Assembly (NCBI GenBank): GCA_947628675.1 | Contig: CANRAR010000011.1 | Location: 1 to 37,808 of the forward strand | Length of the DNA stretch: 37,808 bases | Origin: an uncultured Clostridia bacterium | GTDB lineage: Bacteria; Bacillota; Clostridia; Christensenellales; Borkfalkiaceae | Reading direction: 5' to 3' | Shown: piece by piece, positions 8,141 to 32,202 of the stretch | Numbering within the stretch: position 1 is the stretch's first letter | Layout: each line of letters opens with the position of its first letter | Made by a program: the position numbers and the translations under genes | The notes under the pieces: generated by a model | What the model saw: the letters and a program-made list of their open reading frames with translations, nothing else | Databases searched by the model: none | Told to the model about the DNA's origin: nothing

Positions 8141-8171
8141 TATGTCAGACATAATAACTATGCGTGACATA
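8141..8171 (+). repeat. Dispersed palindromic element, copy 1 (double dyad)
   Basis: TATGTC-A-GACATA (8141-8153) is followed 18 bases on by a second, weaker dyad TATG-CGT-GACATA (8159-8171). It begins at the base after the GH13 stop codon. The same core recurs at 18544, 25639 and 31750. Confidence 0.8.
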
Positions 8172-8191
8172 ATATGGATTGCATAAACCAT

Positions 8192-8233
8192 GCGGCGCGA
8201 CGCGAAAAAGTGCGGTTTGCGCCGCGTTTTTTT
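8192..8233 (+). terminator. Intrinsic terminator of the glycogen operon
   Basis: GCGGCGC (8192-8198) pairs with GCGCCGC (8219-8225) across a 20-base loop that can fold further, followed by a run of T at 8227-8233. It lies about 50 bases after the last gene of the operon. Confidence 0.75.
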
Positions 8234-8584
8234 ATGATTTTTTATGGAAAGAACGATGCGCGAGGCGCAATACAATATAATGTGCCGCGATGTGCCGCGC
8301 GAAAAAATAATTTTTTTCTGCTGAAAAATGTTACGAAAAAATTTACCAAAAAAATTTATGAAAAAAATCAGATGTGCGCAAAATTGCGGTTTTTTCATAA
8401 GGATACGCGTAAAATATGCGTTTTTTGCCCAGTACTATTCGTAAAATGTGCCTTTTGCGAATAGTTTGATGTGTCGGGGTGGCGGTTTTTACCTCTACCC
8501 CATGGGGCGGATTTGTATCCCTTAAGCGGATTTTGAGCCCTATCGGGTCATGGTTGAGGAAATATTTTTGATAAAATTAGATTT
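8234..8584. other. AT-rich intergenic stretch with a hairpin and no credible gene
   Basis: 8234-8430 is strongly A/T rich with poly-A and poly-T runs. A hairpin with arms ACTATTCGTAAAA and TTTTGCGAATAGT (one G-T pair) spans 8434-8465. I see no ORF with a ribosome site here. A 96-codon frame at 8174-8464 runs through the operon terminator and has low-complexity Lys/Phe composition. Confidence 0.6.
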
Positions 8585-8785
8585 TTTATGAACTTTCCAC
8601 TCGTATTCTGACCTGCAACGGGCATCCATTCCCAATTGATGTTCTGAAAATATGAACTTTTCACTTGAATGCGCTGCTGACGTGTGACAAGCCCCTTTCC
8701 CCATACCAATCTGGGAATATGAAATTTCTACTTGTATGCAGTCGAGCCCGCAGGTCGCCCCTTCCCAATGGCAATACGGAAAAAG
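8585..8785. repeat. Degenerate tandem repeat, three units of 64-67 bp
   Basis: Units begin with ATGAACTTTCCACT (8588), ATGAACTTTTCACT (8652) and ATGAAATTTCTACT (8719). Each runs on to a CCTTTCCCCAT- or CCATTCCCAAT-like block about 40 bases later. The spacings (64 and 67) are not multiples of three together, so this is not a repeat protein. Function unknown. Confidence 0.6.
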
Positions 8786-8890
8786 ATTAAGAAATAACAT
8801 TTACGGCCTCGGACGCGACTTTGGTGATTCAGCGGAAGCGATACAGTTTGCTATCTAATGCGGCTAACTCCACTCCCCTTTTTTCGCGCT

Positions 8891-9014
8891 CTCTTATCAC
8901 AGCGCTTCCGTAAAGTCAAGGGGCAAGCGGTCGTATTTTTTTTGCAAGGACAGCAAAAAAAATCTCCACCGCGCAGTAGCGCCTCTTGACTTTCCTCTCG
9001 CGCTGTGATAAACT
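8891..9014. repeat. Long imperfect inverted repeat with divergent promoters on its arms
   Basis: The left arm (about 8894-8924: TTATCACAGCGC, then AAAGTCAAGGGGC) matches the reverse complement of the right arm (about 8980-9011). The loop adds a nested pair, TTTTTTTTGC/GCAAAAAAAA (8937-8961). Each arm carries an outward promoter. On the minus strand TTGACT (8914-8919), 17 bases, TAAGAG (8891-8896); on the plus strand TTGACT (8986-8991), 17 bases, TAAACT (9009-9014). Both share TGTGATAA. It could be the remnant of a small mobile element or a structured regulatory locus. Confidence 0.6.
8986..9014 (+). promoter_or_regulatory. Sigma-A-like promoter for the 38-aa ORF
   Basis: TTGACT, 17 bases, TAAACT, with TGTGA just upstream of the -10. 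Predicted start near 9021, giving a leader of about 57 bases. That leader contains a 12-bp hairpin (arms 9023-9034 and 9039-9050, one mismatch). Confidence 0.55.
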
Positions 9015-9077
9015 CCAAATAAGAAGTGTAAGGCGCAGGCCTCACACTTCCAATTATGAAAAAGGTAGGTAAAGGAG

Positions 9078-9194
9078 ATGGACGAAGAAATGAGTTTGTC
9101 GGACAAGGCTATCCAGCGGTTACGGGAATACCTTCTCGGTATCGGTTGGACAGCCGAGCAAATCCTCGAATTACTTGACTACTTGACCAAGTAA
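9078..9194 (+). CDS. 38-aa small protein, unknown function
   Basis: Reads MDEEMSLSDKAIQRLREY and then LLGIGWTAEQILELLDYLTK. It is an acidic, amphipathic two-helix peptide with no membrane segment and no cysteines. AAAGGAG lies directly before ATG 9078; a second ATG at 9090 has the same site 12 bases away and may be the true start. I do not recognise a named family, though small proteins with a GWTAEQI-type core are familiar from Firmicute accessory DNA. A promoter at 8986-9014 and a terminator at 9330-9357 frame it, and a minus-strand promoter at 9298-9326 points back over it, so antisense control is possible. It is too short for most gene finders. Confidence 0.6.
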   Translation: MDEEMSLSDKAIQRLREYLLGIGWTAEQILELLDYLTK

Positions 9195-9214
9195 GCGAGG
9201 CGGAACAAAAAACC

Positions 9215-9254
9215 GAGCCGTTGCAACAAGGCGCTTCCAACACCGCAACGGCTC
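9215..9254. other. Perfect 10-bp stem-loop after the small ORF
   Basis: GAGCCGTTGC (9215-9224) and GCAACGGCTC (9245-9254) form a perfect stem with a 20-base loop. No T-run follows. A second, weaker stem GCGGGAACC/GGTTCTCGC lies at 9262-9293. Confidence 0.6.
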
Positions 9255-9297
9255 AACCAAAGCGGGAACCTAACAACCTACCTCGGTTCTCGCCTTT

Positions 9298-9326
9298 ACT
9301 TTATCACAAGAAATTCCGTTTGTCAA
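9298..9326 (-). promoter_or_regulatory. Sigma-A-like promoter facing back over the 38-aa ORF
   Basis: On the minus strand TTGACA (9321-9326), 17 bases, TAAAGT (9298-9303), again with TTGTGA before the -10. It would make RNA antisense to the 38-aa gene and its 3' stem-loops. Confidence 0.45.
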
Positions 9327-9329
9327 GAA

Positions 9330-9357
9330 AAAACTCCCCTTTTCGGGAGTTTTAATA
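9330..9357 (+). terminator. Terminator-like hairpin
   Basis: AAAACTCCC (9330-9338) pairs with GGGAGTTTT (9345-9353). With A/T tails on both sides it could act in both directions. Confidence 0.6.
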
Positions 9358-9489
9358 TAATATTAAGACCGGGGGGGACGGAATCAATGTATTCGGGGAA
9401 CTTGCTGTCGAACCGACCATTCGCTACCGTTCTTTGCGCTACATACGCCGTTTTCGCTGCCCTGATCTTTGTGTCTCCCCTCTTCTTTC

Positions 9490-9509
9490 GTTAAAAAATT
9501 ATTTTTAAC
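9490..9509. repeat. AT-rich 8-4-8 inverted repeat upstream of the recombinase gene
   Basis: GTTAAAAA-ATTA-TTTTTAAC, a perfect dyad ending 47 bases before the recombinase start. It could be a recombinase core site, an operator or chance. A dif-like role is only a suggestion. Confidence 0.4.
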
Positions 9510-9520
9510 TCTTCGTAAAA

Positions 9521-9549
9521 TTGACACAGTTTGCGGGCTGTGATATAAT
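9521..9549 (+). promoter_or_regulatory. Consensus sigma-A promoter of the recombinase-hflX unit
   Basis: TTGACA (9521-9526), exactly 17 bases, TATAAT (9544-9549), with a TGTGA extension. The start codon begins 7 bases after the -10, so the expected transcription start is the A of the ATG. Confidence 0.85.
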
Positions 9550-9555
9550 GGCGGT

Positions 9556-10611
9556 ATGAAAAACAACCCGAATTACTATCAGCAGAGAAATCTCGACAAT
9601 CTTGACCGCATCGACAGGCTCATGGAGGAGCTTCCCTACTTTTGCGAGGATTTTTTGCGGGGCGTGGAGACGCGCACGAGCACCCTCACCCGCCTCAATT
9701 ATGTGTACGATCTGCGCATTTTCTTCGATTTTCTCGTAAAAAAACGCTTCCGCGGCAAGGAAGTGCGCGATTTGACCCTTGAGGACATCGAGCGCGTGAC
9801 GGATACCGACATCGAGATCTTCCTCTCCTACCTTTCCAACTATGAGTTCGGCGGCAAGCGGCTTGCCTGTGACGAACGCGCAAAGGCGAGGAAACTTTCG
9901 ACGGTGCGCTCCATGTATAAGTACTTCTTCAACAAGGGGCTCATCGAAGTCAACAACACTGCCAAGGTCTCGACACCCAAACTCCACGAGAAGGAGATCG
10001 TGCGGCTCGAGGGCGACGAGGTCTCCTCCATTCTCGATACCGCCGAATACGGCAACGGGCTTTCGCGCCATGCGAGCGGCTACCATGACAAGACGAAGAT
10101 CCGCGATACAGCCATTCTGACTCTCTTTTTGGGCACGGGCATCCGTATCTCCGAACTCGTGGGGCTCAACGACGAGAGCATCGATTTTTCCACCAATTCC
10201 TTTGTGGTGACGCGCAAGGGCGGAAATCATGCGATCTTATACTTCTCCGAGGAGGTCGGCGACGCCCTCGCTGCCTATATCGCCCAAAAACAGGACGATC
10301 CCAAGGTGCCCTCCGACGAACACGCCCTCTTCCTCTCCATGCAGTACAGGCGCATCACTGTGCGCGCCGTTGAAAATCTCGTGAAGAAGTACGCGCGCAT
10401 CGTCTCCCCTCTCAAAAAAATTACGCCGCATAAACTGCGCTCGACGTACGGCACCGAACTGTACCGCGAGACGGGCGACATCTACATCGTCGCCGACGTT
10501 TTGGGGCACAAGGACGTGAATACGACGCGGAAGCACTACGCCGCCATCACCGAGGACCACCGCAAGGCCGTCGCCGGCAAGGTGAAACTGCACAGGACGG
10601 ACGACAAATGA
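9556..10611 (+). CDS. Tyrosine recombinase, XerS-like integrase
   Basis: Site-specific DNA strand exchange enzyme, 351 residues. All catalytic residues are visible: R197 (GTGIRISE), K221 (TRKGGN), H292 and R295 (HKLR), H318 (GHKDVN) and nucleophile Y328 (RKHYAAI). The N-terminal ELPYFCEDFLRGVETRTSTLTRLNYVYDLRIFFDFL matches the core-binding domain of the single-chain XerS type seen in streptococci and Clostridia, which acts alone in chromosome dimer resolution. No SD sequence precedes ATG 9556, and the promoter places transcription start on the ATG, so the mRNA should be leaderless. It overlaps hflX by 4 bases. An AT-rich inverted repeat at 9490-9509 may be related. Confidence 0.9.
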   Translation: MKNNPNYYQQRNLDNLDRIDRLMEELPYFCEDFLRGVETRTSTLTRLNYVYDLRIFFDFLVKKRFRGKEVRDLTLEDIERVTDTDIEIFLSYLSNYEFGGKRLACDERAKARKLSTVRSMYKYFFNKGLIEVNNTAKVSTPKLHEKEIVRLEGDEVSSILDTAEYGNGLSRHASGYHDKTKIRDTAILTLFLGTGIRISELVGLNDESIDFSTNSFVVTRKGGNHAILYFSEEVGDALAAYIAQKQDDPKVPSDEHALFLSMQYRRITVRAVENLVKKYARIVSPLKKITPHKLRSTYGTELYRETGDIYIVADVLGHKDVNTTRKHYAAITEDHRKAVAGKVKLHRTDDK

Positions 10612-11822
10612 ACGAAAAGCCGGAGGTAGTCTACATCATTCAGCCCATTTTGGGCGCGGAGAGCAAGGCGGTGCACGAGGAGGCCGTCTCGCTCATCGAG
10701 AGCGCGGGGGCGTCCTACGCGGGGACGATCTACCAAAATATCCGCGAAGTCAACCCCGCAACGTATGTGGGCGAGGGAAAACTGCAGGAACTCAAGGAAC
10801 GGCTCGAGGGCTTGGACGACGTGACGGTGCTCTTCAACGGGGAACTCTCCCCTTCCCAGACGCTGAACATCTCCGAGGCGCTCGGCGGGAGGAAGGTCAT
10901 TGACCGCACGACGCTCATTCTCGATATCTTTGCCCTGCGCGCCGAGAGCAGTGAGGGCAAGTTGCAGGTGGAACTCGCCCAACTCAACTATCTCTATCCC
11001 CGCCTTCGGGGCAAGGGCGCGGCGCTCTCGCGGCTCGGGGGCGGCATCGGGACGCGCGGCCCCGGGGAGACCCGCCTGGAGACGGACAGGCGGCATATCC
11101 GCGCGCGCATCCACGCGCTGGAAACACGGCTTGCGGAGACGGAGAAGCGGCGGGCGCACCTCACCGAAAGGCGAAAAAAGGATCGCGTGATGACGGTGGC
11201 GCTCGTCGGATACACGAATACGGGGAAATCTACCCTCTTGAACGCGATAACGGGCGCTGATGTTCTGACAAAGGACGCCCTGTTTGCGACGCTCGACCCG
11301 ACGGCGCGGGCGTTTGAAATTGAAGGCGTCCCCTTCCTCATGGTGGATACCGTAGGATTTTTGCAGGCGCTTCCCCATCACCTCATCGAGGCGTTCAAAT
11401 CGACGCTCGAGAGTGCCCTCCACTGCGACCTCGCGCTCATCGTGTGCGACGCGGCGGGCGACTATGAGATGCAACTTTCGACCACCCTGAAAACGCTCGG
11501 CGATTTGGGGTTTTCCGTACCCCATGTCGTCGTTTTGAACAAATGTGACCTCGCGCCCGAGGGGTATTTCCCGCGCGACGCCGTGCGCATTTCCGCCAAG
11601 ACGGGCGCGGGGCTCGATGATTTGAAGCGGCGCATCTTTGACGTTTTGCAGGACAATTTCGTGCGGGCGGAACTCTTCATTCCCTACGCGCAGATGGGCG
11701 ACTACGGGAACTTGCGCCCCCTTCTCACCGAGCGCGGCGTGGAGTACACCGACGACGGCGTGAAGGTATGTGCCATCATTCCCGCTATTTATGCCGAAAA
11801 ATTTCGCCGATTTATAAAATGA
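10608..11822 (+). CDS. hflX: Ribosome-associated GTPase HflX
   Basis: GTPase that binds stalled or hibernating 70S ribosomes and splits them under stress. 404 residues. The N-terminal HflX domain contains VGEGKLQELKERLEG and FNGELSPSQTLNISEALGGRKVIDRT. A helical linker and GGIGTRGPGETRLETDRRHI follow. The G domain has P-loop GYTNTGKST (near residue 200), DTVGF (G3) and NKCD (G4). A short C-terminal domain ends in IYAEKFRRFIK. ATG 10608 overlaps the recombinase TGA (ATGA), indicating translational coupling. Confidence 0.95.
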   Translation: MNEKPEVVYIIQPILGAESKAVHEEAVSLIESAGASYAGTIYQNIREVNPATYVGEGKLQELKERLEGLDDVTVLFNGELSPSQTLNISEALGGRKVIDRTTLILDIFALRAESSEGKLQVELAQLNYLYPRLRGKGAALSRLGGGIGTRGPGETRLETDRRHIRARIHALETRLAETEKRRAHLTERRKKDRVMTVALVGYTNTGKSTLLNAITGADVLTKDALFATLDPTARAFEIEGVPFLMVDTVGFLQALPHHLIEAFKSTLESALHCDLALIVCDAAGDYEMQLSTTLKTLGDLGFSVPHVVVLNKCDLAPEGYFPRDAVRISAKTGAGLDDLKRRIFDVLQDNFVRAELFIPYAQMGDYGNLRPLLTERGVEYTDDGVKVCAIIPAIYAEKFRRFIK

Positions 11823-11848
11823 GCGCTGCCTGACGGCAACGCCCTTTT
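11823..11848. terminator. Bidirectional terminator between convergent hflX and the Cys-rich gene
   Basis: GCGCTGCC (11823-11830), TGAC loop, GGCAACGC (11835-11842), then CCTTTTCTT on the plus strand. The minus strand reads the same hairpin followed by TCATTTTAT. Confidence 0.7.
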
Positions 11849-15545: not shown

Positions 15546-16262
15546 TCAGGAAATTTTTACGAGTTCCTCGTCGAGCCCGCGCAAAAAGTCGGGCAGTTCG
15601 TACCCGCCCTCCGTGATGGGGCGCTCCTCGGGCTCCTCCTTGGGTGCGGGCGTGGGGGAGCGGGCTTCTTCCACGGCCGCCTCCTCGTTCTCCTCGCTGT
15701 ATTCCTCGCGCGCGTAGAGATAACTGTCGCGCTCGTCGCTCTCCCCCGCGATCTTCGCCATGAGTTCGTCGTAGTCGGGCAGGTCGGCGAGGGAACTCAA
15801 TTTGAACCGCTTCAAAAATTCGTCAGTCGTCGCAAAGAGCACGGGGCGGCCGACGGCATCCTTCCTGCCGCACGGATAGATGAGCTTCAAGTCGAGCAGC
15901 ATATTGACGGCGTAATCGCTGTTCACGCCGCGCAGAAGTTCGATCTCCGAGCGCGTGATGGGCTGTTTGTAGGCTATGATGGCGGCGCATTCCAGAATGG
16001 TGCGGGTGAGTTCCTTCTCCCGGATGGGGTTTAATACGGCGGCGACCTCCTCCTTATATTGCGGATTGGAGGCGAGTTGCGCCTTTTTGTTGTATTCGAG
16101 GAGCTGGATGCCCCCCTCTTCGCCGTATTTTTCGCGGAGTTCTTTGAGCGCGGCGTTTATTTCGCGCACGGTGACGTTCAGCTTGTCGGCGATATCCGAA
16201 AGGGCGACCCCCTTCCCCGAGGCGAATAAAATTGCCTCAATTGTATTCGTCAATTTGTTCAA
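15546..16262 (-). CDS. scpB: Segregation and condensation protein B
   Basis: Kleisin-interacting winged-helix subunit of the SMC-ScpAB condensin. 238 residues. IEAILFASGKGVALSDIADKL, then AALKELREKYGEEGGIQL and ILECAAIIAYKQPITRSEIE with RGVNSDYAVNMLLDLKLI are the family blocks. After residue about 180 there is an acidic, disordered tail (EENEEAAVEEARSPTPAPKE) that is longer than usual. ATG 16262 overlaps scpA by 26 bases, indicating translational coupling. Confidence 0.95.
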   Translation of the reverse strand: MNKLTNTIEAILFASGKGVALSDIADKLNVTVREINAALKELREKYGEEGGIQLLEYNKKAQLASNPQYKEEVAAVLNPIREKELTRTILECAAIIAYKQPITRSEIELLRGVNSDYAVNMLLDLKLIYPCGRKDAVGRPVLFATTDEFLKRFKLSSLADLPDYDELMAKIAGESDERDSYLYAREEYSEENEEAAVEEARSPTPAPKEEPEERPITEGGYELPDFLRGLDEELVKIS

Positions 16263-17028
16263 GCGTCTCCTCCTTTCTCTCGGGGTTGAGCGCGATCGTG
16301 ATGGGCGCGAAAAGTTCGTGCTGGGTTACCGTGAGATATTGGTGTTTTAAGAGTTCCAAAAGGGCTTGGAAGGTGGTGATGATCTCCGATTTCGTGTAGT
16401 CGCGGGAGAAAAGTTCCTCGAATTGCACGGGTTCGCCCCCTTCGAGGCACTCCATGATGAAGGAAATTTTCTGCCGCACCGTGTATTCGTCGCGCGGGAT
16501 CTCGCGGGCTTCCTGCGCCGCCATCTCGCGGTCACGGGTGCGCATGAGCTGGGCAAGTGCGCCGATGAGGCCGTTCGTCGTGAGATTATCGAGGGAAAAG
16601 ACGGTGCGCACTTCCCCCACGTTGCGGTCGGGCTCCTTGAAGTAGTAGCCGATGGTCTCGAGTTCCTTGAGTTTTTTGGTCTCTTCCTTGATGAGGCGGT
16701 ACTCTTCGAGGGCGCGGATGATGGCAGCCTTGTCTTCTTCGACCTCTGCGTCGATCTCGGGGTTCTCCTCGAGGTTGGGCACGAGCGCCTGCGCTTTTAT
16801 CTTGATGATGGTCGCCGCGATGTTGAGATAGTCGGTGACCTTTTCCACGTCGAGATAGGGAAGCCCCTGCATATACGCCAAAAATTGCTCGGTAACTTCG
16901 GAGACGAACACGTCCTTTATCTCGATCTCCTCGCGGTTGATGAGATAGAGAAGAAGGTCGAGCGGCCCCTCGAAGTTGTTGAGAACCGTGGTATAATCGA
17001 CATTGGATTCAAAATCTTCGCGCTTCAA
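16237..17028 (-). CDS. scpA: Segregation and condensation protein A (kleisin)
   Basis: Kleisin that bridges the SMC heads in chromosome condensation. 263 residues from the chosen start. VLNNFEGPLDLLLYLINREEIEI and YLNIAATIIKIKAQALVPN are diagnostic; the C-terminus has a winged-helix-like QKISFIMECLEGGEPVQFEELF. The start is TTG 17028, with GGGAGG seven bases upstream. A GTG at 17070 in the same frame would lie upstream of the predicted transcription start (about 17052), so it cannot be used. First gene of its operon. Confidence 0.95.
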   Translation of the reverse strand: MKREDFESNVDYTTVLNNFEGPLDLLLYLINREEIEIKDVFVSEVTEQFLAYMQGLPYLDVEKVTDYLNIAATIIKIKAQALVPNLEENPEIDAEVEEDKAAIIRALEEYRLIKEETKKLKELETIGYYFKEPDRNVGEVRTVFSLDNLTTNGLIGALAQLMRTRDREMAAQEAREIPRDEYTVRQKISFIMECLEGGEPVQFEELFSRDYTKSEIITTFQALLELLKHQYLTVTQHELFAPITIALNPERKEETLEQIDEYN

Positions 17029-17058
17029 ACTGCTTCCTCCCGTATCCGACGCTGTTTT

Positions 17059-17087
17059 ATTATAGTGCAAACAGACGAAAAAGGCAA
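17059..17087 (-). promoter_or_regulatory. Promoter of the scpA operon
   Basis: TTGCCT (17082-17087), 17 bases, TATAAT (17059-17064). It lies right after the lysA terminator. Confidence 0.75.
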
Positions 17088-18510: not shown

Positions 18511-18549
18511 AAAAAAGGCATAACAACCGCAAAAAACAGTTATTATGCC
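18511..18549 (-). terminator. Terminator of the dac (18578-19738) gene
   Basis: On the minus strand GGCATAATAAC and GTTGTTATGCC form an 11-bp stem with one G-T pair, followed by TTTTTT. The T-run abuts the lysA -35. Its upstream arm overlaps dispersed-element copy 2. Confidence 0.85.
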
Positions 18550-18565
18550 AGACATAGTACTATGC
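18544..18565. repeat. Dispersed palindromic element, copy 2
   Basis: TATGCC-A-GACATA (one mismatch in the dyad), then GTACTATGC. Intergenic, between dac and lysA. Confidence 0.8.
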
Positions 18566-18577: not shown

Positions 18578-19738
18578 TTATGCACTCCAATGCTTTGCCC
18601 CGTCGCGGAAGGCATCCCACCAACTGTACCGCTCCGCCTCCTCGAACGCGACGAGCGCCGTCCTTGCAACCTCCACGCCATTGCGGTACAGAACCGCCGT
18701 GCCGACCGCTTCGCCCTTGGCAATGGGCGCGCGCAGGCCCTCATTCAACTCATAGGCGACGGTAAACTCCCCCTCTTCCGCGCGCTTACAGAATGCCGCA
18801 AGCGAGGTTTCGGGGGCAATCGCAATGTCCTTTTGCTTGCCACCCTCTACGGATGCGCGCTCCGCAAGCGGCTCGCCGCCCTTCAACATCGTGCGCGTCG
18901 CGTACTCGGCAAACGTCTCGTCGAACATCGCGGCGATGGAGGCGTTGCGGATCTTGGCGCTCTCCGCGCCGATGACGACGGCGATTAGGCGGGTGTCCCC
19001 CCTGCGGGCGGTCGCGGCGAGGCAGTAGCCCGCCTCATTGGTGAAGCCCGTCTTTCCGCCGTCGCACCCCTCGTAGTGGCGGATGAGCTTGTTGGTATTC
19101 GTCATGCTCGTCGTCCTGCCGTCGGGGTGGACGAAGTCCTCGAGCCACACGCGGGAAAATTCAAAGTATATTTGGTGCCTTAAGAGCGCGCGGAGCATAA
19201 TGGAGACGTCCTTCGCGCAAGAGTACTGCGGGTCCTTCGGGAGCCCCGTGCAGTTGGAAAAGAGCGTGTTCTCCGCGCCGAGTTCCCCCGCGCGCTCGTT
19301 CATTTTGGCGACGAAGGCCTCCTCACTGCCCGCAATGCGCTCCGCAAGCGCCACGCAGGAGTCATTTGCCGAGCAGACGGCGACGCTCTTCATGAGCGCC
19401 TCCGCGGGATAGGTGAGGTTTGCGCCCAAAAATACCTGTGAGCCCCCCATTCCCGCGGCGTGTTCGCTCACCGTGATGGGCTCATCGTAGGCGATCTCGC
19501 CCCGTTCCGCCGCCTCGAAGGTGAGAAGCAGCGTCATGATCTTGCACATACTTGCGATCGGCAGGCGCTCCGTCTCGTTTTTGGCGTAGACGACGGTGCC
19601 CGTCTCGTAGTCGCAAAGATAGGCGGATTTGCCCGCGGGCTCCTTGGTGAGCGCCGCCGCGCGCGACGCCGCCCCACCGCCCAAAACCATTGTTCCCGCC
19701 GCGAGGGCGGAAAACATCAACGCGAAAACTTTTTTCAT
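18578..19738 (-). CDS. D-alanyl-D-alanine carboxypeptidase (S11), second copy
   Basis: 386 residues. Signal peptide (VFALMFSALAAGTMVLGGGA, then ASRAAA), catalytic S63-K66 (ASMCK), SAN in CSANDSC and KTGFTNEAG. The C-terminal 110 residues form the beta-domain of PBP5/DacF proteins, ending in YSWWDAFRDGAKHWSA. The start is ATG 19738, where the signal peptide begins; the long upstream frame is antisense-like reading of the neighbouring membrane gene. It sits 35 bases after the SpoIIM-like gene, so it is probably co-transcribed with spoIVB and spoIIM and may act in spore cortex formation. No strong SD is visible. Confidence 0.92.
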   Translation of the reverse strand: MKKVFALMFSALAAGTMVLGGGAASRAAALTKEPAGKSAYLCDYETGTVVYAKNETERLPIASMCKIMTLLLTFEAAERGEIAYDEPITVSEHAAGMGGSQVFLGANLTYPAEALMKSVAVCSANDSCVALAERIAGSEEAFVAKMNERAGELGAENTLFSNCTGLPKDPQYSCAKDVSIMLRALLRHQIYFEFSRVWLEDFVHPDGRTTSMTNTNKLIRHYEGCDGGKTGFTNEAGYCLAATARRGDTRLIAVVIGAESAKIRNASIAAMFDETFAEYATRTMLKGGEPLAERASVEGGKQKDIAIAPETSLAAFCKRAEEGEFTVAYELNEGLRAPIAKGEAVGTAVLYRNGVEVARTALVAFEEAERYSWWDAFRDGAKHWSA

Positions 19739-19773
19739 ACCCGCAGTTTGCGCAGTTTTGGGGAAAATACGCG

Positions 19774-20379
19774 TCAAATGATATTTCCGAGCGGGTGGAA
19801 GAGCGCAAGAAGCAGCAGCATTTCGAGAAGCCCTACCGCGAGCACGAGGCAGAAGTAGACGAGAAAGTCGGTGAAGAGCAGCGCCCAATCGTGGCGCGAA
19901 AAGCAAAACCTTCGGCACCGCGCATAGGAAAGCGCCCCCGCGCAGCAGAGGATGGCGTCGATGAGAAGGTGCACGGGCAAATACAGCCCAATGACGATGA
20001 GCGCGCCCTCGAAGCGGTAGACGGAGAAGAAAATGTAGAGGCTTCCGCCGAAGGTGTAGGCGCGGAACAGGAAAATTACGGGCGGAAGGATGCACCCCAC
20101 CGCATGGATGCCCGCGAGCATGATGACGAGGAGCAGAACGGTATGCCCGAGCGTTCTCTCCAAAAAAATCTCCAAGACACTGCGGTCGGAGAAGCAAATG
20201 CGATTGACAAAGCGGTCGCAGACGGTGATGTGGTAATCGTAGATGGCGGGCGTCGTGACGAAGATGAGCCCGAGAATGGTGGCGACGAGCAGAAGAACGG
20301 CAAAGACGAGCAACGTCTTTTTTCTGTCGAATGTCCGCGCGAGGCAGTCGCGGAAACAAAAGGAAAGGTTCATATACAA
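19774..20379 (-). CDS. SpoIIM-like polytopic membrane protein
   Basis: About 200 residues with five or six transmembrane segments. The central part (LERTLGHTVLLLVIMLAGIH, then ILPPVIFLFRAYTFGGSLYI) lines up by pattern with B. subtilis SpoIIM (DUF95 family), a partner of SpoIID/SpoIIP in engulfment. The match is by topology and a few residues, so the name is tentative. Possible starts: TTG 20379 (GGGAGG nine bases upstream, chosen), ATG 20373, or TTG 20421 with no SD. ATG 20373 lies inside a perfect hairpin. Follows spoIVB by 38 bases. Confidence 0.6.
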   Translation of the reverse strand: MYMNLSFCFRDCLARTFDRKKTLLVFAVLLLVATILGLIFVTTPAIYDYHITVCDRFVNRICFSDRSVLEIFLERTLGHTVLLLVIMLAGIHAVGCILPPVIFLFRAYTFGGSLYIFFSVYRFEGALIVIGLYLPVHLLIDAILCCAGALSYARCRRFCFSRHDWALLFTDFLVYFCLVLAVGLLEMLLLLALFHPLGNII

Positions 20380-20391
20380 TGATATGAACCT
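20366..20391 (-). promoter_or_regulatory. Hairpin over the start of the SpoIIM-like gene
   Basis: On the minus strand AGGTTCATAT, loop CATTGT, ATATGAACCT. The 5' arm takes in the end of the GGGAGG ribosome site and the 3' arm holds ATG 20373. Confidence 0.6.
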
Positions 20392-20417
20392 CCCTGCCGC
20401 AATATCCCCTTTTTTCG

Positions 20418-21431
20418 TCAATTTCCGAGCATATTCTCGATGCCGATGCCATAGCCGCGCGTCGGGTCGTTGATAAATACGTGCGTGATCGCCCCGATGA
20501 GTTTGCCGTTCTGCACGATGGGACTGCCGCTCATCCCCTGCACGATGCCGCCCGTCTCCTCGATGAGCCGCTTATCCGTCACTTTGATGACGTAATTTTT
20601 GTGCTCCGCGTGGCTTGTATCCACCTTTGCGATGGCGATCTCGTACTGCTGCGGCGTGACGCCGTCGATCGTGGAGTAGATGAACGCGCGCCCGATCGTC
20701 GCCTCCTTGGAGGGAGCGGCGGGAACGCACTCGCAGGCGGATAGATCGTAACACGGGTCGAACGTTCCGTACAGCCCCACGTCGCAGACGGTATCTGCAG
20801 AGGCGATGGTCTTATCGTTCATAAAAAGACCTCTGAGTTCCCCCGCGCGCCCCCTCTTGCCCTTGTTGACGCCGATGACACTGCAAAGATATACGCTCTT
20901 TTCGGCGATCTCGAGTTCGCTCTTGTTCTCGTCGCAGACGGCGTGTCCGAGCGCGCCGAAGCGCAAATCGCTTTTTCGGATATAGGTGACTGTCCCGATG
21001 CCCGAGAGCGTATCGCGGATGAGAACGCCGAGTTTGTATTTCCCGCTCTTCTTGTCCTTGACGGGGGTGACGGTCGTCTCCGCCGTCTCGCCGTTCCGCC
21101 TGACAAGAAGAACGACGCTCTTACCGCCGCACAGTTCGAGCGCCGCTCCCAAATCGCCGATCTTTTTAATTCGTATGCCGTTCAGGGCGCAGATGGTGTC
21201 TCCGACCTTCAGCCCCGCTTCCTCCGCCGGTCTGTGGCGGCCGTTTTCATCTTCGATCTCGGTGAAGCCCACGATCTCGGTGCCGCCCGCCGAGAGCGAG
21301 AACCCCGCCGTCATGCCGCCGAGATAATATTCCTCCGTTGCCGCGGCGGCTGTTCCGTACCCCACGCCGCAGAATGCTACGGCGAGCACGGCGACAAGCA
21401 ACGCCGCAGATAAAAATTTCAGCCTACGCAT
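20418..21431 (-). CDS. spoIVB: SpoIVB serine peptidase
   Basis: Forespore-made protease that crosses to the outer compartment and triggers SpoIVFA cleavage and sigma-K activation. 337 residues. An N-terminal membrane/signal segment (LKFLSAALLVAVLAVAFCGV) is followed by a PDZ domain (PAEEAGLKVGDTICALNGIR) and a peptidase domain with His in FGALGHAV and Ser in GGIVQGMSGSPIVQNGKLIG. CGGAGG lies directly before ATG 21431. It follows recN, as in most spore formers, but is not followed by spo0A here. Confidence 0.95.
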   Translation of the reverse strand: MRRLKFLSAALLVAVLAVAFCGVGYGTAAAATEEYYLGGMTAGFSLSAGGTEIVGFTEIEDENGRHRPAEEAGLKVGDTICALNGIRIKKIGDLGAALELCGGKSVVLLVRRNGETAETTVTPVKDKKSGKYKLGVLIRDTLSGIGTVTYIRKSDLRFGALGHAVCDENKSELEIAEKSVYLCSVIGVNKGKRGRAGELRGLFMNDKTIASADTVCDVGLYGTFDPCYDLSACECVPAAPSKEATIGRAFIYSTIDGVTPQQYEIAIAKVDTSHAEHKNYVIKVTDKRLIEETGGIVQGMSGSPIVQNGKLIGAITHVFINDPTRGYGIGIENMLGN

Positions 21432-21499: not shown

Positions 21500-23191
21500 T
21501 CAAAGGGAGTTTTTGTAAATTGCCGCGTCCTTCAAGAGTTTTTCGGCGTGGGCGAGGGCAATCTCGCTCTCCGAACCGTCGATGAGGCGGGCGATCTCGC
21601 GGCGGCGCCCCTCCTCGTCCAGCGGATGCAGTTCGGTGAGCGTACGGCCGTCCGCCTCCTTCTTTTCGATGTAAAATTGTTTATCCGCGAGCGCGGCGAT
21701 CTGCGCGAGGTGCGTCACCGCGATGACCTGCACGTCCTTTGCGATCTTGCAGAATTTTTCCGCCACGACGTGTGCCGTCTTTCCGCCGATGCCCGCGTCG
21801 ATTTCGTCGAAAATGTACGTCCCGATGCCGCCAATGCCCGAAAGTTGGGACTTGACGGCGAGCATGAAGCGGCTCATTTCGCCGCCGCTGATGATGCTCC
21901 CCATCTCTTTGAGCGGCTCGCCGGCGTTCGCAGAGAAGAGGAATTTGACTTCGCCGAGCCCCTCCGCCGTCGCCTTCCCCACGTCCTCGCGGCCGTAATC
22001 GCCGAAGAACACCTCAAACCGCGCGGAGGAAATGTTCAGCGTCATGAGTTCGGCCGTAACACGGGCGGTGAAACTCTCCGCCGCGCACTTGCGAGCATCG
22101 GTAAGGGCGACGCACTTCGCATAAATCTCGTCTTCGAGCCCCGCAAGTTCCTCCGTGAGCCGCGCGTAGCGTTCGCCGCTCTCCGAGAGCATCTCCTGCT
22201 CGCGCTCTGCGGCTGCGAGAAATTCCAGCGCGGCCTCCACGCTTCCGCCGTATTTTTTCTTCAAGGTGCGGATCTCTTCGAGGCGCTCCTCGACGCGCTC
22301 CTCCTCGCGTTCGTCGAGGTTGAGTTCATCGAGACAGCGCTCCGCCTCGTCGGCAATGTCTTCGAGTTCCGCGGCGGCGTTTTCCAGCCGCTCATCGAGG
22401 GAAGCATATGCTTCGGATAGCGTCGAGAGCCCGCCGACCGAACGCTTTGCGCCGTTCACGCCGTCGATGCCCCCGCCGTCCGCGCGGAGAAAATCCCGCA
22501 CCCCGTTTAAGCCCTGCATGATCTTTTCGGCGTTGCGGAAGCGGGCGCGCAGGGATAAAAGTTCCTCCTCCTCGCCGCTTTTGAGTTCTGCGCGCGTGAG
22601 TTCGTCGATTTGATAGCGCAGAATATCCAGCCGCCGCGACCGTTCCCCCTCGTCGCCGCCGAGCATCCGCATATCGGCGAGGACGGCGCGCCGCCTCCCG
22701 AGCGCCTCGGAAAGCGCCGCCTTGGCCGCCGCGACGGGCTCGCCCGCCACACTATCCAAAAGGCGGAGTTGGTTGCTCTCCTTGAGGAGGAAAAAGTGTT
22801 CGCTCTGGCCGTGGACGTCCACGAGGAGCGCGGTGAGGCGGCGGAGCATCGCAAGCGTCACGCCGCATCCGTTGACGCGGACAGTACTCTTCCCGTCCGC
22901 CGTGAGTTTGCGCGAGATAACAAGCAGTTCTTCCGCCTCGATCTCGAATTCGTCGAGGAGCGCCCTCACTTCTTCGCCGTATGCGGAAAATTCGGCGCGC
23001 ACCGAACATTCGGCCGCGCCGTAGCGGATCATGCTCTTATCCGATTTCGCCCCGAGGGCAAAATCGATACAGTCGAGAATGACGGATTTTCCCGCGCCCG
23101 TCTCGCCCGTAAGGACGTTGAGCCCGCGCGAAAATTCCAATTCCGCGCGGGGGATGAGCGCCACGTTTTGTATGGAAAGCCGTTCTAACAT
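21500..23191 (-). CDS. recN: DNA repair protein RecN
   Basis: SMC-like ATPase acting early at double-strand breaks. 563 residues. Walker A GETGAGKS (near residue 30), a long central coiled coil rich in Glu/Arg/Leu (about 150-350), signature SGGEMSRFMLAVKSQL, and Walker B YIFDEIDAGIGGKTA followed by VTHLAQIAALAD. ATG 23191 is 5 bases after the argR stop. The argR-recN pair is standard in Firmicutes. Confidence 0.96.
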   Translation of the reverse strand: MLERLSIQNVALIPRAELEFSRGLNVLTGETGAGKSVILDCIDFALGAKSDKSMIRYGAAECSVRAEFSAYGEEVRALLDEFEIEAEELLVISRKLTADGKSTVRVNGCGVTLAMLRRLTALLVDVHGQSEHFFLLKESNQLRLLDSVAGEPVAAAKAALSEALGRRRAVLADMRMLGGDEGERSRRLDILRYQIDELTRAELKSGEEEELLSLRARFRNAEKIMQGLNGVRDFLRADGGGIDGVNGAKRSVGGLSTLSEAYASLDERLENAAAELEDIADEAERCLDELNLDEREEERVEERLEEIRTLKKKYGGSVEAALEFLAAAEREQEMLSESGERYARLTEELAGLEDEIYAKCVALTDARKCAAESFTARVTAELMTLNISSARFEVFFGDYGREDVGKATAEGLGEVKFLFSANAGEPLKEMGSIISGGEMSRFMLAVKSQLSGIGGIGTYIFDEIDAGIGGKTAHVVAEKFCKIAKDVQVIAVTHLAQIAALADKQFYIEKKEADGRTLTELHPLDEEGRRREIARLIDGSESEIALAHAEKLLKDAAIYKNSL

Positions 23192-25295: not shown

Positions 25296-26994
25296 AGAGC
25301 GAAATGACGAGGCTTTCGAGCGCCTCGCGGCTCAAACCGTGCTTTTCGGCAAGCGAACGCGGCGTTCCGTGCGGAATAAAGGCGTCGTCATAGCCGAAGG
25401 AGTAGATCTTTTTCTCCGAATTGCGGTAGAACCGCGCGACGGCGTCGCCGAGCCCGCCGATCTTCACATTGTCTTCCAACGTGATAACGTGTTTTTGCGG
25501 CAGACTTTCAAGAAGTTCGCCGTCGAGCGGCTTCAAAAACCGCGCATTGACGACGGCAAAATCTTTGCCCTGCGCCGCGGTCTTTTTGCGCACATCCTCG
25601 GCAAGAGAAATGCACCGCTCGCCCGCCGCAAGTACAACTATGTCAGACATAGTACTATGTAAAACTTCCATTTTCCCAATTTCGATGGGCGAAACGGGGC
25701 TTTCAACGCCCGCACGGGGATAGCGGATGGCGAGCGGGGCGTTCCAATGGGCGCCCGCGCGCAGCATCGAACGGAACTCCCCCACGTCCTTGGGAATGGC
25801 AATGGTGAGATTGGGGATAAAGGAGAGGTAGGAAAGGTCGAATACGCCCTGATGCGTCTCGCCGTCGGCCCCCGTGATGCCCGCGCGATCGATGCAGAAC
25901 GTCACGGGAAGGTTCTGCCCGCATACGTCGTGAATGATCTCATCGAAGGCGCGCTGTAAAAAGGTGGAATAGATGGCGTAGTACGGCCGCAACCCCTCCG
26001 TCGCCATCGCCGCGCAGAGGACGGAGGCGTGTTCTTCGCAGATGCCCACGTCGAAGGAGCGTTCGGGGAAGCGGCGGAAAAATTCACGAAGTCCGAGGCT
26101 GTCCGTCATGGCGGCAGTCACGGCGACGATGCGCTCATCCTCTTCCGCGAGCGCGCAGAGTTCTTCGCCGAGCGCGGCGGAGTACTCCTTCTGCGCCTCG
26201 CCCCCCTGCGGGCTGACGCCGTGCGTCGCCTCGGGCGCGTTTTCGCAGAAGGGATAGCCCTGCCCCTTCCGCGTGACGACGTGCAGGAGAACGCTGGAAT
26301 TCGCAAGCGCCCTTTTCGCCTCGTCGAGGGCGGGGAGCAGTTCGGAAAAATCGTTCCCGTTGTACACGCCCATGTACGTGAGCCCGTACTGCTCGAAGAG
26401 CGCGATGCTCTCGGGCTTCATGCCCGCCTTCAGTTCGCCCAAAATATCGTGGGTGCCGCCCACCGTGGGCGAGATCGACATCCCGTTGTCGTTGACGACG
26501 ATGAGCACACGCGTGTTCAAAATATGCAGGCTGTTGAGCGCCTCAAACACGAGCCCGTTGTTGAAGGAGCCGTCGCCGATGAGAGCGATGACGTTGAAAT
26601 CTTCCCCCTTCAAGTCGCGCGCCTTGGCGATGCCGAGTGCGGCGGAGATCGCCGTGCCCGCGTGACCCGTATCGTAGCAGTCGTACGCGCTCTCCTGCCG
26701 CTTGGGAAAGCCCGAGATGCCGCCCTCCTGCCGAAGCGTGGAGAAGCGGGCGGCGCGGTCGGAGAGCAATTTATGCGTGTAGCATTGGTGCCCCACGTCG
26801 AAAATTATCTTGTCGCGCGGGAAATCAAACGCCCTATGGAGGGCGACGGTGAGTTCCACCGTGCCCAAATTGGACGAAAGGTGCCCCCCGCACACGGAGA
26901 CGGTATCGAAGATCTCCCTGCGGAGCGTTTCGCAAATCTCTTTCAGTTGTGGAATGGAAGCCGACTTGACTTCCGCATCGGTGATGATTTTCAT
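25282..26994 (-). CDS. dxs: 1-deoxy-D-xylulose-5-phosphate synthase
   Basis: Thiamine-diphosphate enzyme starting the MEP isoprenoid pathway. 570 residues, about 50 fewer than usual. GGHLSSNLGTVELTVALH, then FDVGHQCYTHKLL, the ThDP site GDGSFNNGLVFEALN...VVNDNGMSISP, CEEHA and DRAGITGADGETHQGVFDLS are all present. The missing residues come from the linker between SISP and YGLTYMGVYNG. A dispersed palindromic element at 25639-25660 is translated in frame as LHSTMSDIV, replacing a variable loop before the C-terminal domain. ispA lies 33 bases upstream and tlyA overlaps downstream. No clear SD. Confidence 0.95.
   Translation of the reverse strand: MKIITDAEVKSASIPQLKEICETLRREIFDTVSVCGGHLSSNLGTVELTVALHRAFDFPRDKIIFDVGHQCYTHKLLSDRAARFSTLRQEGGISGFPKRQESAYDCYDTGHAGTAISAALGIAKARDLKGEDFNVIALIGDGSFNNGLVFEALNSLHILNTRVLIVVNDNGMSISPTVGGTHDILGELKAGMKPESIALFEQYGLTYMGVYNGNDFSELLPALDEAKRALANSSVLLHVVTRKGQGYPFCENAPEATHGVSPQGGEAQKEYSAALGEELCALAEEDERIVAVTAAMTDSLGLREFFRRFPERSFDVGICEEHASVLCAAMATEGLRPYYAIYSTFLQRAFDEIIHDVCGQNLPVTFCIDRAGITGADGETHQGVFDLSYLSFIPNLTIAIPKDVGEFRSMLRAGAHWNAPLAIRYPRAGVESPVSPIEIGKMEVLHSTMSDIVVLAAGERCISLAEDVRKKTAAQGKDFAVVNARFLKPLDGELLESLPQKHVITLEDNVKIGGLGDAVARFYRNSEKKIYSFGYDDAFIPHGTPRSLAEKHGLSREALESLVISLYARG
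25639..25660. repeat. Dispersed palindromic element, copy 3, inside dxs
   Basis: TATGTC-A-GACATA then GTACTATGT. Here the dyad extends to ACTATGTC/GACATAGT (17 bp), and a second overlapping palindrome, ACATAGTACTATGT, follows. Encodes STMSDI in the dxs frame. Confidence 0.85.
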
Positions 26995-29134: not shown

Positions 29135-29184
29135 GCGTCACCGAATACGACAATTTCCCCTTCCGTCGGGAAAGGGAAACCGCA

Positions 29185-29586: not shown

Positions 29587-29608
29587 AACATTCTCCTTTT
29601 CAAGGAAC

Positions 29609-29619
29609 ATTATAGCACA
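29609..29619 (-). promoter_or_regulatory. Extended -10 promoter of the asp23-nusB operon
   Basis: On the minus strand TGC-TATAAT (TATAAT at 29609-29614). The -35 position is poor (TAGTAA), typical of extended -10 promoters. Confidence 0.55.
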
Positions 29620-29647
29620 TCTTTTCCGAATTTACTACTGTTTTTCC

Positions 29648-30133
29648 TCAACTTTCCGCATAAACAGGCATAATTACGACGTCGCCGTTCTCAATTTGGT
29701 ATTCATATTCGAGCGCGTAGAAGATTCTGGTCAAATCGTCCTCGTTGAGTTCGCTCGCATTGACGAACACGTTGATGTGATCGTTCTCGGTGAGCGTGAC
29801 GGCAGCATCGGAGAAACCGAGTCCCTTGATGATGGATTCCATCACGAGTTCGTCCTCCATGAGCTCCACGAGTTCCATCTTTCTTTGGTACGCGGCGGCG
29901 TATTCGTCGGAGCCCTCCACACTGCTTGCGATGATGGCGTCGAGTTCCATAAATTCTTCGCTGCGGGTCGAATTGCGGATATCGCGGTAGCTCGTGAAGT
30001 AGTTGACGGGCGTATCCGTTGCGCCGTCAACGGTCTCCGCTCTCGTGCCCGCGAGGATGAAGTTGAAGATGGCGGTCACGGCGAGGACGAGGACGAGGGT
30101 AGACATGAGTGCGATTTTTTTGGTGTTTGACAT
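29648..30133 (-). CDS. spoIIIAH: Stage III sporulation protein AH
   Basis: Mother-cell partner of SpoIIQ in the channel joining mother cell and forespore. 161 residues, shorter than the roughly 220 of Bacillus. One N-terminal transmembrane segment (IALMSTLVLVLAVTAIFNFI) and a periplasmic-side domain with FTSYRDIRNSTRSEEFMELD and the ring-building-motif fold (SDAAVTLTENDHINVFVNAS). GAAGGAG precedes ATG 30133. Last gene of the spoIIIA operon, 28 bases after spoIIIAG. Confidence 0.93.
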   Translation of the reverse strand: MSNTKKIALMSTLVLVLAVTAIFNFILAGTRAETVDGATDTPVNYFTSYRDIRNSTRSEEFMELDAIIASSVEGSDEYAAAYQRKMELVELMEDELVMESIIKGLGFSDAAVTLTENDHINVFVNASELNEDDLTRIFYALEYEYQIENGDVVIMPVYAES

Positions 30134-30161
30134 GGTTTTATCTCCTTCTGATAAAATTTAC

Positions 30162-30527
30162 TCAATTGTCGGCGGGATAGACGAGCACATCCTGCCTTGC
30201 GATATGGAGGGCGTTGGCGGTCGCATCGAGGACGCGCATCCGGGTGACGAGCCCGAGGTCGCCGCGGATGATGACGACCGCGCTGACGGCCTCCCCGTCC
30301 TTTTCGCCGATCATCACCGTCGCGCCGTCCACGCCCTCTATTTCACCGAGCAGTTGGGCGAGCCGCTCTTCAAGCGTTGTCGGGCTGTACCCGTCGGATG
30401 ATTTGCTCTGTCCGCCCGAAAAGAACACCCGCCATACGGCAAACAGCAACAGGAACGCCCCGATCCCCACGGCGACGACGCGAAAGCCTCTGCTCTGGAA
30501 CAATTTTTTGATGCGCTCCGTGTTCAT
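30162..30527 (-). CDS. spoIIIAG: Stage III sporulation protein AG
   Basis: Forms a ring in the mother cell-forespore channel. 121 residues, about half the Bacillus length. One transmembrane helix (VVAVGIGAFLLLFAVWRVFF) and a ring-building domain with LLGEIEGVDGATVMIG and VRVLDATANALHIARQDVLV-type ending. ATG 30527 overlaps the spoIIIAF stop (ATGA). Confidence 0.92.
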   Translation of the reverse strand: MNTERIKKLFQSRGFRVVAVGIGAFLLLFAVWRVFFSGGQSKSSDGYSPTTLEERLAQLLGEIEGVDGATVMIGEKDGEAVSAVVIIRGDLGLVTRMRVLDATANALHIARQDVLVYPADN

Positions 30528-30979
30528 GATACCTCCGCAATGTCGCCGTACTGCTCTACGAGGAAGGCTTGGACGCGGTCTAAAATATCTTTATGCTCCC
30601 CTTGTCCGGATATGCCGAAATCGGAAATTTTTACCGTGATTTTTTCCCGCTCGAACGTCGCATCCGCCCTGCGCACGACCTCGGCGGTCGCCTCCAGCCC
30701 GAACTCTTCGCGGACGGCGGCGGCGATCTCCTCCTCGTCCCGCGCGGAGAGCATCTCGGCGCAGGCGGAAAAGTACCCGTCGTCCTCGTCCAAAACGCCC
30801 GCCGAGAGCGATAGTTTCCCGCTTTGGAACCAGCTCACGAAGGGCGCGATGAGCACGACGAGGGTGAAGAGTTTCATCCCGCCCTTCACGAATTTCCCCA
30901 TCTTGCCGCTCGGCGCGATCATCGTGATGACGGCGGAGATGAGCACGGCGCCCACGATGCTCAAAATGTAGGCGCGCAT
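30524..30979 (-). CDS. spoIIIAF: Stage III sporulation protein AF
   Basis: Membrane component of the SpoIIIA complex. 151 residues. Two N-terminal transmembrane helices (YILSIVGAVLISAVITMIAP and KLFTLVVLIAPFVSWF) are followed by a soluble ring-building-type domain. ATG 30979 overlaps the spoIIIAE stop by one base (TGATG). The longer in-frame extension is spoIIIAE read out of frame. Confidence 0.92.
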   Translation of the reverse strand: MRAYILSIVGAVLISAVITMIAPSGKMGKFVKGGMKLFTLVVLIAPFVSWFQSGKLSLSAGVLDEDDGYFSACAEMLSARDEEEIAAAVREEFGLEATAEVVRRADATFEREKITVKISDFGISGQGEHKDILDRVQAFLVEQYGDIAEVS

Positions 30980-32202
30980 CAGAAGATGACCCCCGTCGCG
31001 CAGATGAGGAGGATGAGCGTCAGAAAGTACAGGAAGGCGACGCACAAAATTCCCGCCAAAAAGTAGCCGCAATCCCCCGCGAGGCGGGAAAGGAAGGGCG
31101 AAATTTTGCCTCCGACGGGCTCGGTCGCCGCGGCGGAGAGCCGCAAAAAGAGCTGAAACGCGGCGATGAGGAGGACGGGGCGCAGGACGGTCGCAAACAG
31201 CAGAAAGACGGCAAACGAGCCGAGCGCGTTCTTGATGAGGGCGCTCCCCGCGACCACGAGTTCCATGCCCCCCGACAAAAATCCGCCCACGAGTGGCACG
31301 GAGCCCGAAATGACGTACTTTGCGGCGCGGAGCGAGAGCCCGTCGTACTGCGCGGAGGTGAGCCCCTGCACGGTGAGAAAGATGCTCATGAGGGCGAGCG
31401 TAAACCCCACGAGCCACTTGCAGATGCTCTTGAAGAGGTCGCCGAGCCGCTCGGTGCGCACCTCGTCCGTCAAATTCCCGATGAAGGCGAGAACGATGAC
31501 GATGACGGAGGAAGGCAGCACGACGGTCATAAAGAGTTCGCAGATGGCGCTGCTCATGAAGGCGACGGCGGGGCGGAATACCCCCGCGGAGACGGCGCCC
31601 CCGCTCGCCGCCATCAGCGTGAGCAGCAAAGGATAGACAATTTGCATCTGCCGTTGCATCTCCCTGAGCGCAGAAAAGCCGCTTTCGAGGACGCCGATGA
31701 GGCAAGCGAGCACGGTCGCCCCCACCGCGATGTACCCCACAAAATGTATTATGTCTGACATAGTACTATCAATAAAGCCGCTTTTCGCAGAGTTTAAGAT
31801 GCCGCATAGGAGCGCGATCGCCAAAATAATGGCAAATGCGGGGATCATCGCCTTCCCGTCCTCCCAGACGAGCGCCAAAATCGCCTCCGTCATGGAATCG
31901 TATTCGAGCGAGTAGTCCCCCGTGATGAGTTTTTTCAGCCGCTCCTTGAAGTTGACGCCGTGAAATTCCGTGAGCGAATTGAGGTATTTTTGCAGTTCCT
32001 CCGTGTCCAGCCCCTTCATGAGTTCGTCGATGTTCTTCTCCACCTCCTCCATGCCCTCCCCCTGCTCCTCGGTAAGGGGCTCCGCGGGCAGGGCGTTGGC
32101 GCATAGAAGCAGCACGGCGGCGAACAGCCCGAGAAGCAGCCACATAACTTTTTTGCGCGGGCGTTTCTCCGTCCGCGTCCGCAGCGGATAGCGTTGCATC
32201 AT
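30979..32202 (-). CDS. spoIIIAE: Stage III sporulation protein AE
   Basis: Polytopic, permease-like core of the SpoIIIA channel. 407 residues. A signal-like first helix (VMWLLLGLFAAVLLLCANAL) and an acidic extracytoplasmic segment are followed by about eight transmembrane helices. PLLLTLMAASGGAVSAGVFR and KYVISGSVPLVGGFLSGGME are family hallmarks. An element copy at 31750-31770 is read in frame as DSTMSDI at the end of the second helix, where Bacillus has a similar-length KKAVSKI. ATG 32202 overlaps the spoIIIAD stop. Confidence 0.95.
   Translation of the reverse strand: MMQRYPLRTRTEKRPRKKVMWLLLGLFAAVLLLCANALPAEPLTEEQGEGMEEVEKNIDELMKGLDTEELQKYLNSLTEFHGVNFKERLKKLITGDYSLEYDSMTEAILALVWEDGKAMIPAFAIILAIALLCGILNSAKSGFIDSTMSDIIHFVGYIAVGATVLACLIGVLESGFSALREMQRQMQIVYPLLLTLMAASGGAVSAGVFRPAVAFMSSAICELFMTVVLPSSVIVIVLAFIGNLTDEVRTERLGDLFKSICKWLVGFTLALMSIFLTVQGLTSAQYDGLSLRAAKYVISGSVPLVGGFLSGGMELVVAGSALIKNALGSFAVFLLFATVLRPVLLIAAFQLFLRLSAAATEPVGGKISPFLSRLAGDCGYFLAGILCVAFLYFLTLILLICATGVIF
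31750..31770. repeat. Dispersed palindromic element, copy 4, inside spoIIIAE
   Basis: TATGTC-T-GACATA (13-bp dyad) then GTACTATC. Read in the spoIIIAE frame as STMSDI, the same frame as in dxs. Confidence 0.85.

Follow-up and report, generated by a model that had tools for sequence, protein, structure and literature searches.

A directional DNA site scattered around the chromosome terminus of uncultured gut Clostridia and its possible link to a PadR-type protein

What does a short palindrome do when it recurs, within genes and between them, along a single piece of a bacterial chromosome? The question is raised by a stretch of 37,808 nucleotides from an uncultured Clostridia bacterium of the Borkfalkiaceae (contig CANRAR010000011.1 of assembly GCA_947628675.1; the whole stretch is called the window here), in which an original prediction, made from the letters alone, had noticed a 21-bp element at four places and had proposed for it a chromosome-organisation or protein-binding site, a regulator operator or a small palindromic mobile element. 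Comparison with related genomes identifies the element as a directional DNA site with copies scattered around the chromosome terminus in a group of uncultured gut bacteria, and its key property is its orientation relative to that terminus, which was absent from the original prediction.

An element with a fixed orientation around the predicted terminus

A scan of the window for the 13-bp palindrome TATGTCWGACATA gives exact copies at 8141, 25639 and 31750 and a copy with one mismatch at 18544. The full 21-mer TATGTCWGACATAGTACTATG, with up to three mismatches allowed, is found at three places, 18544 (one mismatch), 25639 (none) and 31750 (one), and its mean count in 100 shuffles of the window is 0; the prediction was thus right that it lies far beyond chance and right about three of its four places, the copy at 8141, without GTACTATG, having the palindromes only. 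That copy was correctly read as two spaced dyads and consists of two 13-bp palindromes with 5 bp between them, TATGTCAGACATA-ATAAC-TATGCGTGACATA. Across the genome to which the window belongs (1.53 Mb in 34 contigs), a search allowing up to three mismatches finds the element at 15 places and its reversed pattern at none, so the element is neither confined to four places nor at chance frequency, the two outcomes that the prediction itself had named as speaking against it.

The element is present in all 37 genomes of the same genus that were examined, the window's own included, with 6 to 36 matches each (raw counts, in which palindromic places may count twice), and the reversed-pattern control gives three matches in total across these 37 genomes. 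The 24 genomes examined from other families have 0 to 2 matches each, the same as their controls, and of the 201 genomes and 17 genera of the wider family, 108 genomes and 9 genera match a pattern at one mismatch. For distant families, no clear element was seen in the terminus stretches of G041 or G038 (G, C, L and g numbers are our labels for genomes, contigs, loci and genera). Exact copies in named records come mostly from "uncultured Clostridia bacterium" (among 80 of at least 120 matching stretches), and the same 80 include Candidatus Borkfalkia faecigallinarum and Candidatus Gallimonas gallistercoris.

The motif derived from 66 sites is ATTATGTCWGACATAGTACT(A/T)(T/C)G(C/T)AAAA, the whole site being asymmetric and about 26 bp long, with A/T-rich patches on either side of the motif, about 10-11 bp apart, a spacing that would suit a bent or wrapped protein complex. 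Sites of this genus have the full palindrome TATGTCWGACATA on the side of dif, the predicted chromosome-dimer resolution site described below, and a degenerate half, GTACTWTGCAAAA, on the origin side. Genus g27 (G136:C5) uses a double form, in which both halves are full palindromes and the spacer is mostly GGTAT to the right of dif and ATACC to the left; the single-site matrix gives there three matches scoring at least 20 in 320 kb. In the window's own genome, sites with an ACGCATA core were seen on contigs C2, C10, C12, C15, C20 and C24 and sites with a WGACATA-type core on other contigs (C3, C7, C11, C21 and C25), unlike G009:C4 and G029:C1, which mix the two.

On the features that follow, the window spans the replication terminus. 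A perfect dyad TTCGYAAAA-N6-TTTTRCGAA at 8438-8461 (no strand assigned) is the predicted dif; this dyad, first spotted in terminus sequences and then tested across genomes, is found at up to one mismatch in 33 of the 37 genomes of the genus and 13 of the 24 of other families, at a single place in 42 of these 46. The canonical 28-bp dif was tried and rejected, as the B. subtilis and E. coli consensus sites gave no good match. About 1.1 kb downstream of the dyad, on the plus strand, the open reading frame (ORF) 9556-10611 encodes a XerS-like tyrosine recombinase (Pfam PF00589), the presumed partner of dif, whose best NCBIfam match is XerS at 200.8 bits, under the XerS cut-off of 267. Long genes of the window that are conserved in relatives turn from plus to minus between about 8.1 and 12 kb. 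On a 270-kb contig of a relative (G251:C1), GC skew and gene strand both turn from plus to minus at about 101-103 kb, and dif and the strand switch of the element coincide with this turn; GC skew flips at dif in G116 and G136 as well as in G251. A likeness between the tail of the element and a dif arm was also considered and was not significant, the observed score being reached by 539 of 2000 column shuffles. An arm-like string, CTCTTCGTAAAA, recurs beside a TTGACA right before the recombinase gene, and a small ORF at 9078-9194 (38 amino acids by eye, start MDEEMSLSDKAIQRL) lies in the gene-poor region that separates the double palindrome from that gene.

It is around dif that the orientation of the sites becomes apparent. 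An orientation away from dif is shared by 106 of 113 sites on 17 dif-bearing contigs of 17 genomes (to its left, 42 of 45 are on the minus strand; to its right, 64 of 68 are on the plus strand), in a set that omits five places less than 500 bp from dif, in which overlapping two-strand matches were resolved with a matrix built from the same sites, and which should be read as at least 113 sites, as the contigs of G001, G019, G027 and G006 may hold more; the binomial p of 8e-24 for this count overstates the evidence because the genomes share ancestry. On 13 contigs without dif, a set that takes in weak strand bias down to 0.49, 24 of 25 sites are on the strand predicted from the majority gene strand. 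Gene direction does not explain this polarity: of 36 sites examined on five contigs, all 25 in leading contexts, all 4 in lagging and 6 of 7 in mixed ones have the expected orientation, and 15 of the 36 are inside ORFs (the ORFs of this control and of the test without dif are greedy longest-ORF picks). Density rises towards dif, with 7.0 sites per 100 kb at less than 25 kb from it and about 1-5 per 100 kb beyond 100 kb (six contigs).

Two other genera can be read in the same way. In g32 (G116:C1), 15 sites score at least 20 in 400 kb, against none in the reversed sequence, and 12 of the 14 sites outside the dif region, a count that omits one place 175 bp from dif, are polar about dif, where GC skew flips too. 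The scan of g27 passed ten places, seven of them polar (one of these, 4358, is at the mismatch limit, a level at which the reversed control also gives one match), two opposed, both of which come second in a close inverted pair, and one not callable, which lies at the gene of the PadR-type protein presented below.

The copies of the window lie where the original prediction had placed them, after an ORF (6314-8140), in a terminator region and within two genes, which are dxs and spoIIIAE. The double palindrome TATGTCAGACATA-N5-TATGCGTGACATA at the centre of the terminus (8141-8171, no strand assigned) begins directly after the stop codon of ORF 6314-8140 and 267 bp before dif, and a double palindrome at most about 300 bp from dif is found also in three relatives (G251, G029 and G009). 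The intergenic polar site at 18544-18564 (plus strand) overlaps with its consensus match a terminator-like stem at 18517-18549 on the minus strand, belonging to the gene at 18578-20452 (minus strand), and in G029 a site (39503, plus strand) is also just beyond the 3' end of the orthologue of this gene. The polar sites in dxs (25639-25659, plus strand) and spoIIIAE (31750-31770, plus strand) are present in five of six and four of five orthologues examined; in both genes the site-less orthologue aligns gap-free with the site-bearing ones, and by these alignments the two sites arose by substitution, not insertion. Third codon positions within the element are the most conserved of either gene, equalled by 0 of 536 gene windows in dxs and 0 of 373 in spoIIIAE, and with all codon positions 2 of 536 and 4 of 373 reach its conservation, in a test that covers only orthologues bearing the site; the third-position conservation points to selection on the in-gene sites at the level of DNA. 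Less than 15 kb from the terminus, the window also carries scpB, scpA and a RecN/SMC-like gene (15546-17070 and 21500-23191).

A PadR-type protein and the site before its gene

The candidate for a protein that acts on these sites is encoded outside the window, on contig C21 of the same genome. It is a PadR-type protein of 571 residues, whose sole Pfam domain at E 0.001 is PF03551 (residues 37-108, 69.3 bits against a gathering cut-off of 27). A structure model (mean predicted local distance difference test score, pLDDT, 73; predicted template modelling score, pTM, 0.34) has a winged helix (residues 16-127), a single long helix (175-340, about 165 residues) and, near the C terminus, four hydrophobic helices (439-565), which apparently are membrane helices.

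In all six genomes examined first, a site stands directly before TTGACA, the -35 hexamer of the PadR-type gene. Using a scoring matrix trained without the PadR-promoter sites of these six genomes, the element was found upstream of the gene in 29 of the 30 top orthologue loci, with scores of at least 19.7, and on the strand of the gene in 28. Of 53 loci given, 50 were scored (L326, L381 and L382 were left out) and 42 of these 50 upstream regions reach a score of 12 or more, the best reversed control being 7.5; upstream scores of 10-20 in g27 fall mostly on a -10 box and are to be taken as chance, and the scores of L307, L325 and L327 are negative, the stretch scanned there being still coding. 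In another family of the order (L380, from G053), the region upstream of the PadR gene has TATGTCAGACATAGTATTTTG right before a TTGACA, so that the promoter site may predate the family.

The protein is encoded, at E 1e-20, in 171 of 201 genomes of the family and 31 of 32 of this genus, and the genera g28, g33 and g36 have no PadR protein at this threshold and hardly any motif (a single match, in one genome out of the nine of g33). In all 18 pairs of dif and PadR gene, from five families and at distances of 0.6 to 150 kb, transcription of the gene leads away from dif, these pairs having been hand-picked as cases with dif and a long PadR gene on one contig; the gene thus runs against replication, as a polar site ahead of its promoter would demand.

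We consider it highly probable that the PadR-type protein binds the sites and regulates itself. The idea of a chromosome-organisation or protein-binding site is supported, and that of a regulator operator is supported for one site, the one upstream of the PadR-type gene. The expectation of a protein rather than an RNA is also supported, by the palindromic half-sites and by an orientation that is fixed by replichore whatever the gene strand.

A proposed fork trap and its rivals

The arrangement is close to that of RTP/Ter of B. subtilis, when compared by layout and not by aligning the sites with Ter: polar sites lie on both sides of dif in opposite orientation, two adjacent half-sites look unequal by sequence in this genus, with the fuller one towards the terminus (g27 has two full halves), a site lies in the promoter of the protein's own gene, and the protein has a winged helix. 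It differs in that the protein here is of the PadR family, with a long helix and hydrophobic C-terminal helices, in an unrelated clade. The RTP family itself (PF02334) is above cut-off in none of 41 genomes, with a positive B. subtilis control, and at E 0.001 it was found in none of 25 genomes of this genus, with one sub-cut-off match in another family. In Foldseek, PadR-family chains lead and 1f4k, the RTP-DNA complex, comes at rank 45 (E 9e-3) in the company of other winged-helix proteins; the PadR protein and RTP would share a fold at most. Tus of E. coli is a monomer of another fold. The matS site is a palindrome without polarity and MatP is not of the PadR type; the sites here are asymmetric and polar, and resemble matS in being multi-copy and concentrated around dif.

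RTP/Ter sites consist of two half-sites, a fork that meets the strong half first being stopped, and tus and rtp each have a ter site in their promoter (PMC10331603). Tus/Ter is like the present system in this promoter site and in its polar, non-palindromic sites about dif (PMC10331603, PMC6549158), MatP has been described as also contacting membranes (PMC6538776), and two PadR dimers have been described as alike to RTP in topology and dimer form (PMC3506622). The PadR regulators LmrR and cdPadR1 belong to the same winged-helix family and share ATGT/ACAT inverted repeats, and cdPadR1 binds its own promoter through a motif beginning GTACTAT (PMC5050560); the ATGT/ACAT spacing is 3 bp here against 8-10 bp in these regulators, and the present system differs also by its long helix, hydrophobic C-terminal helices and polar terminus sites.

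On the RTP/Ter-like layout, the likeness of PadR to RTP and the PadR operator motifs, we favour a PadR-based, membrane-anchored fork trap. In this reading, a PadR-based terminus system has the element as its binding site and is probably a fork trap that evolved convergently and is anchored in the membrane, which seems to us an evenly balanced proposition. About ten to thirty polar copies per genome flank dif on both arms; a PadR-type winged-helix dimer would bind the palindrome, a second dimer would bind the adjacent half more weakly, and one of the copies would let the protein control the promoter of its own gene. Forks from the origin side would meet the weak half first and pass, forks overrunning dif would meet the strong half first and stop, and the membrane anchor would also keep the terminus at the envelope. 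Among the parts of this proposal, membrane tethering of the terminus is fairly likely, and replication fork arrest at the sites has slightly less than an even chance. A third independently evolved fork trap in the full sense, with a membrane-tied PadR winged helix and a single protein that stops overrunning forks and holds the terminus at the envelope or septum, is a tentative proposal, which we rather doubt than expect to hold. Neither a PadR terminus protein nor a further fork trap was found in the literature, as searched by titles and abstract openings, with few subscription papers and no bioRxiv preprints.

Several observations weigh against the fork trap. To our knowledge, the fork-trap proteins described so far are soluble and a membrane-anchored one has no precedent; the membrane helices here are called from hydrophobic sequence and the model alone. 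The best 50 rows of the VIA-align comparison hold no RTP. In g27, both palindromes are strong and polarity is in the GGTAT spacer, and a simple strong/weak model would not be universal. The genera g26, g30, g31 and g37-g41 have a PadR relative and few or no matches to the single-site pattern, and no recognisable element was found upstream of the PadR gene in G041, G038, G045 and G255. Because the window and G029 show little GC skew, their terminus is called from gene strand, dif and relatives. Polarity is broken by 7 of the 113 sites, three of them on G016:C1, and by 2 of the 14 sites in G116; three of the seven are two-headed places that match on both strands. The exceptions form clusters (14367, 29936 and 53574 on G016:C1; 641035 and 646916 on G116:C1), which are perhaps inversions or assembly joins. 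GC skew by the G116 pair is about zero from 647 to 659 kb, which is not decisive.

The main rival to the fork trap keeps the membrane-anchored PadR protein and has it tether the terminus to the membrane or septum without arresting forks; it owes this place to the membrane helices, which are not known to have a role in fork traps. Precedents for such a tether are MatP-matS-ZapB in E. coli and RocS for the pneumococcal chromosome. This reading is supported by the build of the model, in which a winged helix is followed by the long helix and by the four hydrophobic helices near the C terminus, and by the concentration of the sites around dif. RocS of Streptococcus has a like order, with an N-terminal DNA-binding domain, a coiled coil and a C-terminal membrane anchor (PMC11500499), although RocS has an amphipathic helix and DUF536 where the present protein has four hydrophobic helices; DUF536 was not found in the PadR-type protein, which at E 0.001 matches only PadR in Pfam. 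Polarity is not required of a tether, yet 106 of 113 sites show it with respect to dif and the PadR gene is directed away from dif in all 18 pairs, and we regard tethering without arrest as unlikely, if far from negligible.

The same polarity would suit guides for a DNA translocase (FtsK or SpoIIIE) that steer DNA to dif, like the FtsK orienting polar sequences (KOPS) or the SpoIIIE recognition sequences (SRS). These are octamers, with hundreds of motifs across the whole chromosome (PMC6549158), whereas the element is about 26 bp long, occurs at 15 places of the window's genome when up to three mismatches are allowed, and in one case lies upstream of a PadR gene; we give this role a very slim chance. 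An ordinary PadR regulon, in which the sites would be operators of many genes and their polarity a by-product of gene orientation, would account for the site immediately ahead of the PadR gene's -35 hexamer (6 of 6 genomes, and upstream in 29 of 30 top loci) but not for 15 of 36 sites inside ORFs, nor for an orientation that tracks the replichore in lagging-strand (4 of 4) and mixed (6 of 7) contexts, and its chance is slim too. A dispersed mobile element, of the repetitive extragenic palindromic (REP) or miniature inverted-repeat transposable element (MITE) kind, was suggested by a multi-copy palindrome found within and between genes; it is contradicted for the two in-gene sites examined, in dxs and spoIIIAE, by the gap-free alignment with site-less orthologues and the third-position conservation. 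With the polarity about dif and the lack of any exact copy of the pattern in the viral contigs searched, this part of the original prediction can practically be abandoned.

Meaning for the biology of the terminus

As of 2019, two unrelated fork traps had been described, in four clades (PMC6549158), and why bacteria keep fork traps is debated (PMC10331603). If the fork trap proposed here is true, a third trap with the same logic in Clostridia would mean repeated convergent invention, and the link to PadR proteins would suggest the origin of RTP. For uncultured gut bacteria, whose genomes are available in fragments, the sites offer a marker of both orientation and terminus. The element is probably bound by a membrane-anchored protein with the same site at its own gene, and this would be a new kind of terminus machinery. 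Should the anchor act on the terminus, a single protein would link replication termination with the positioning of the terminus and with division.

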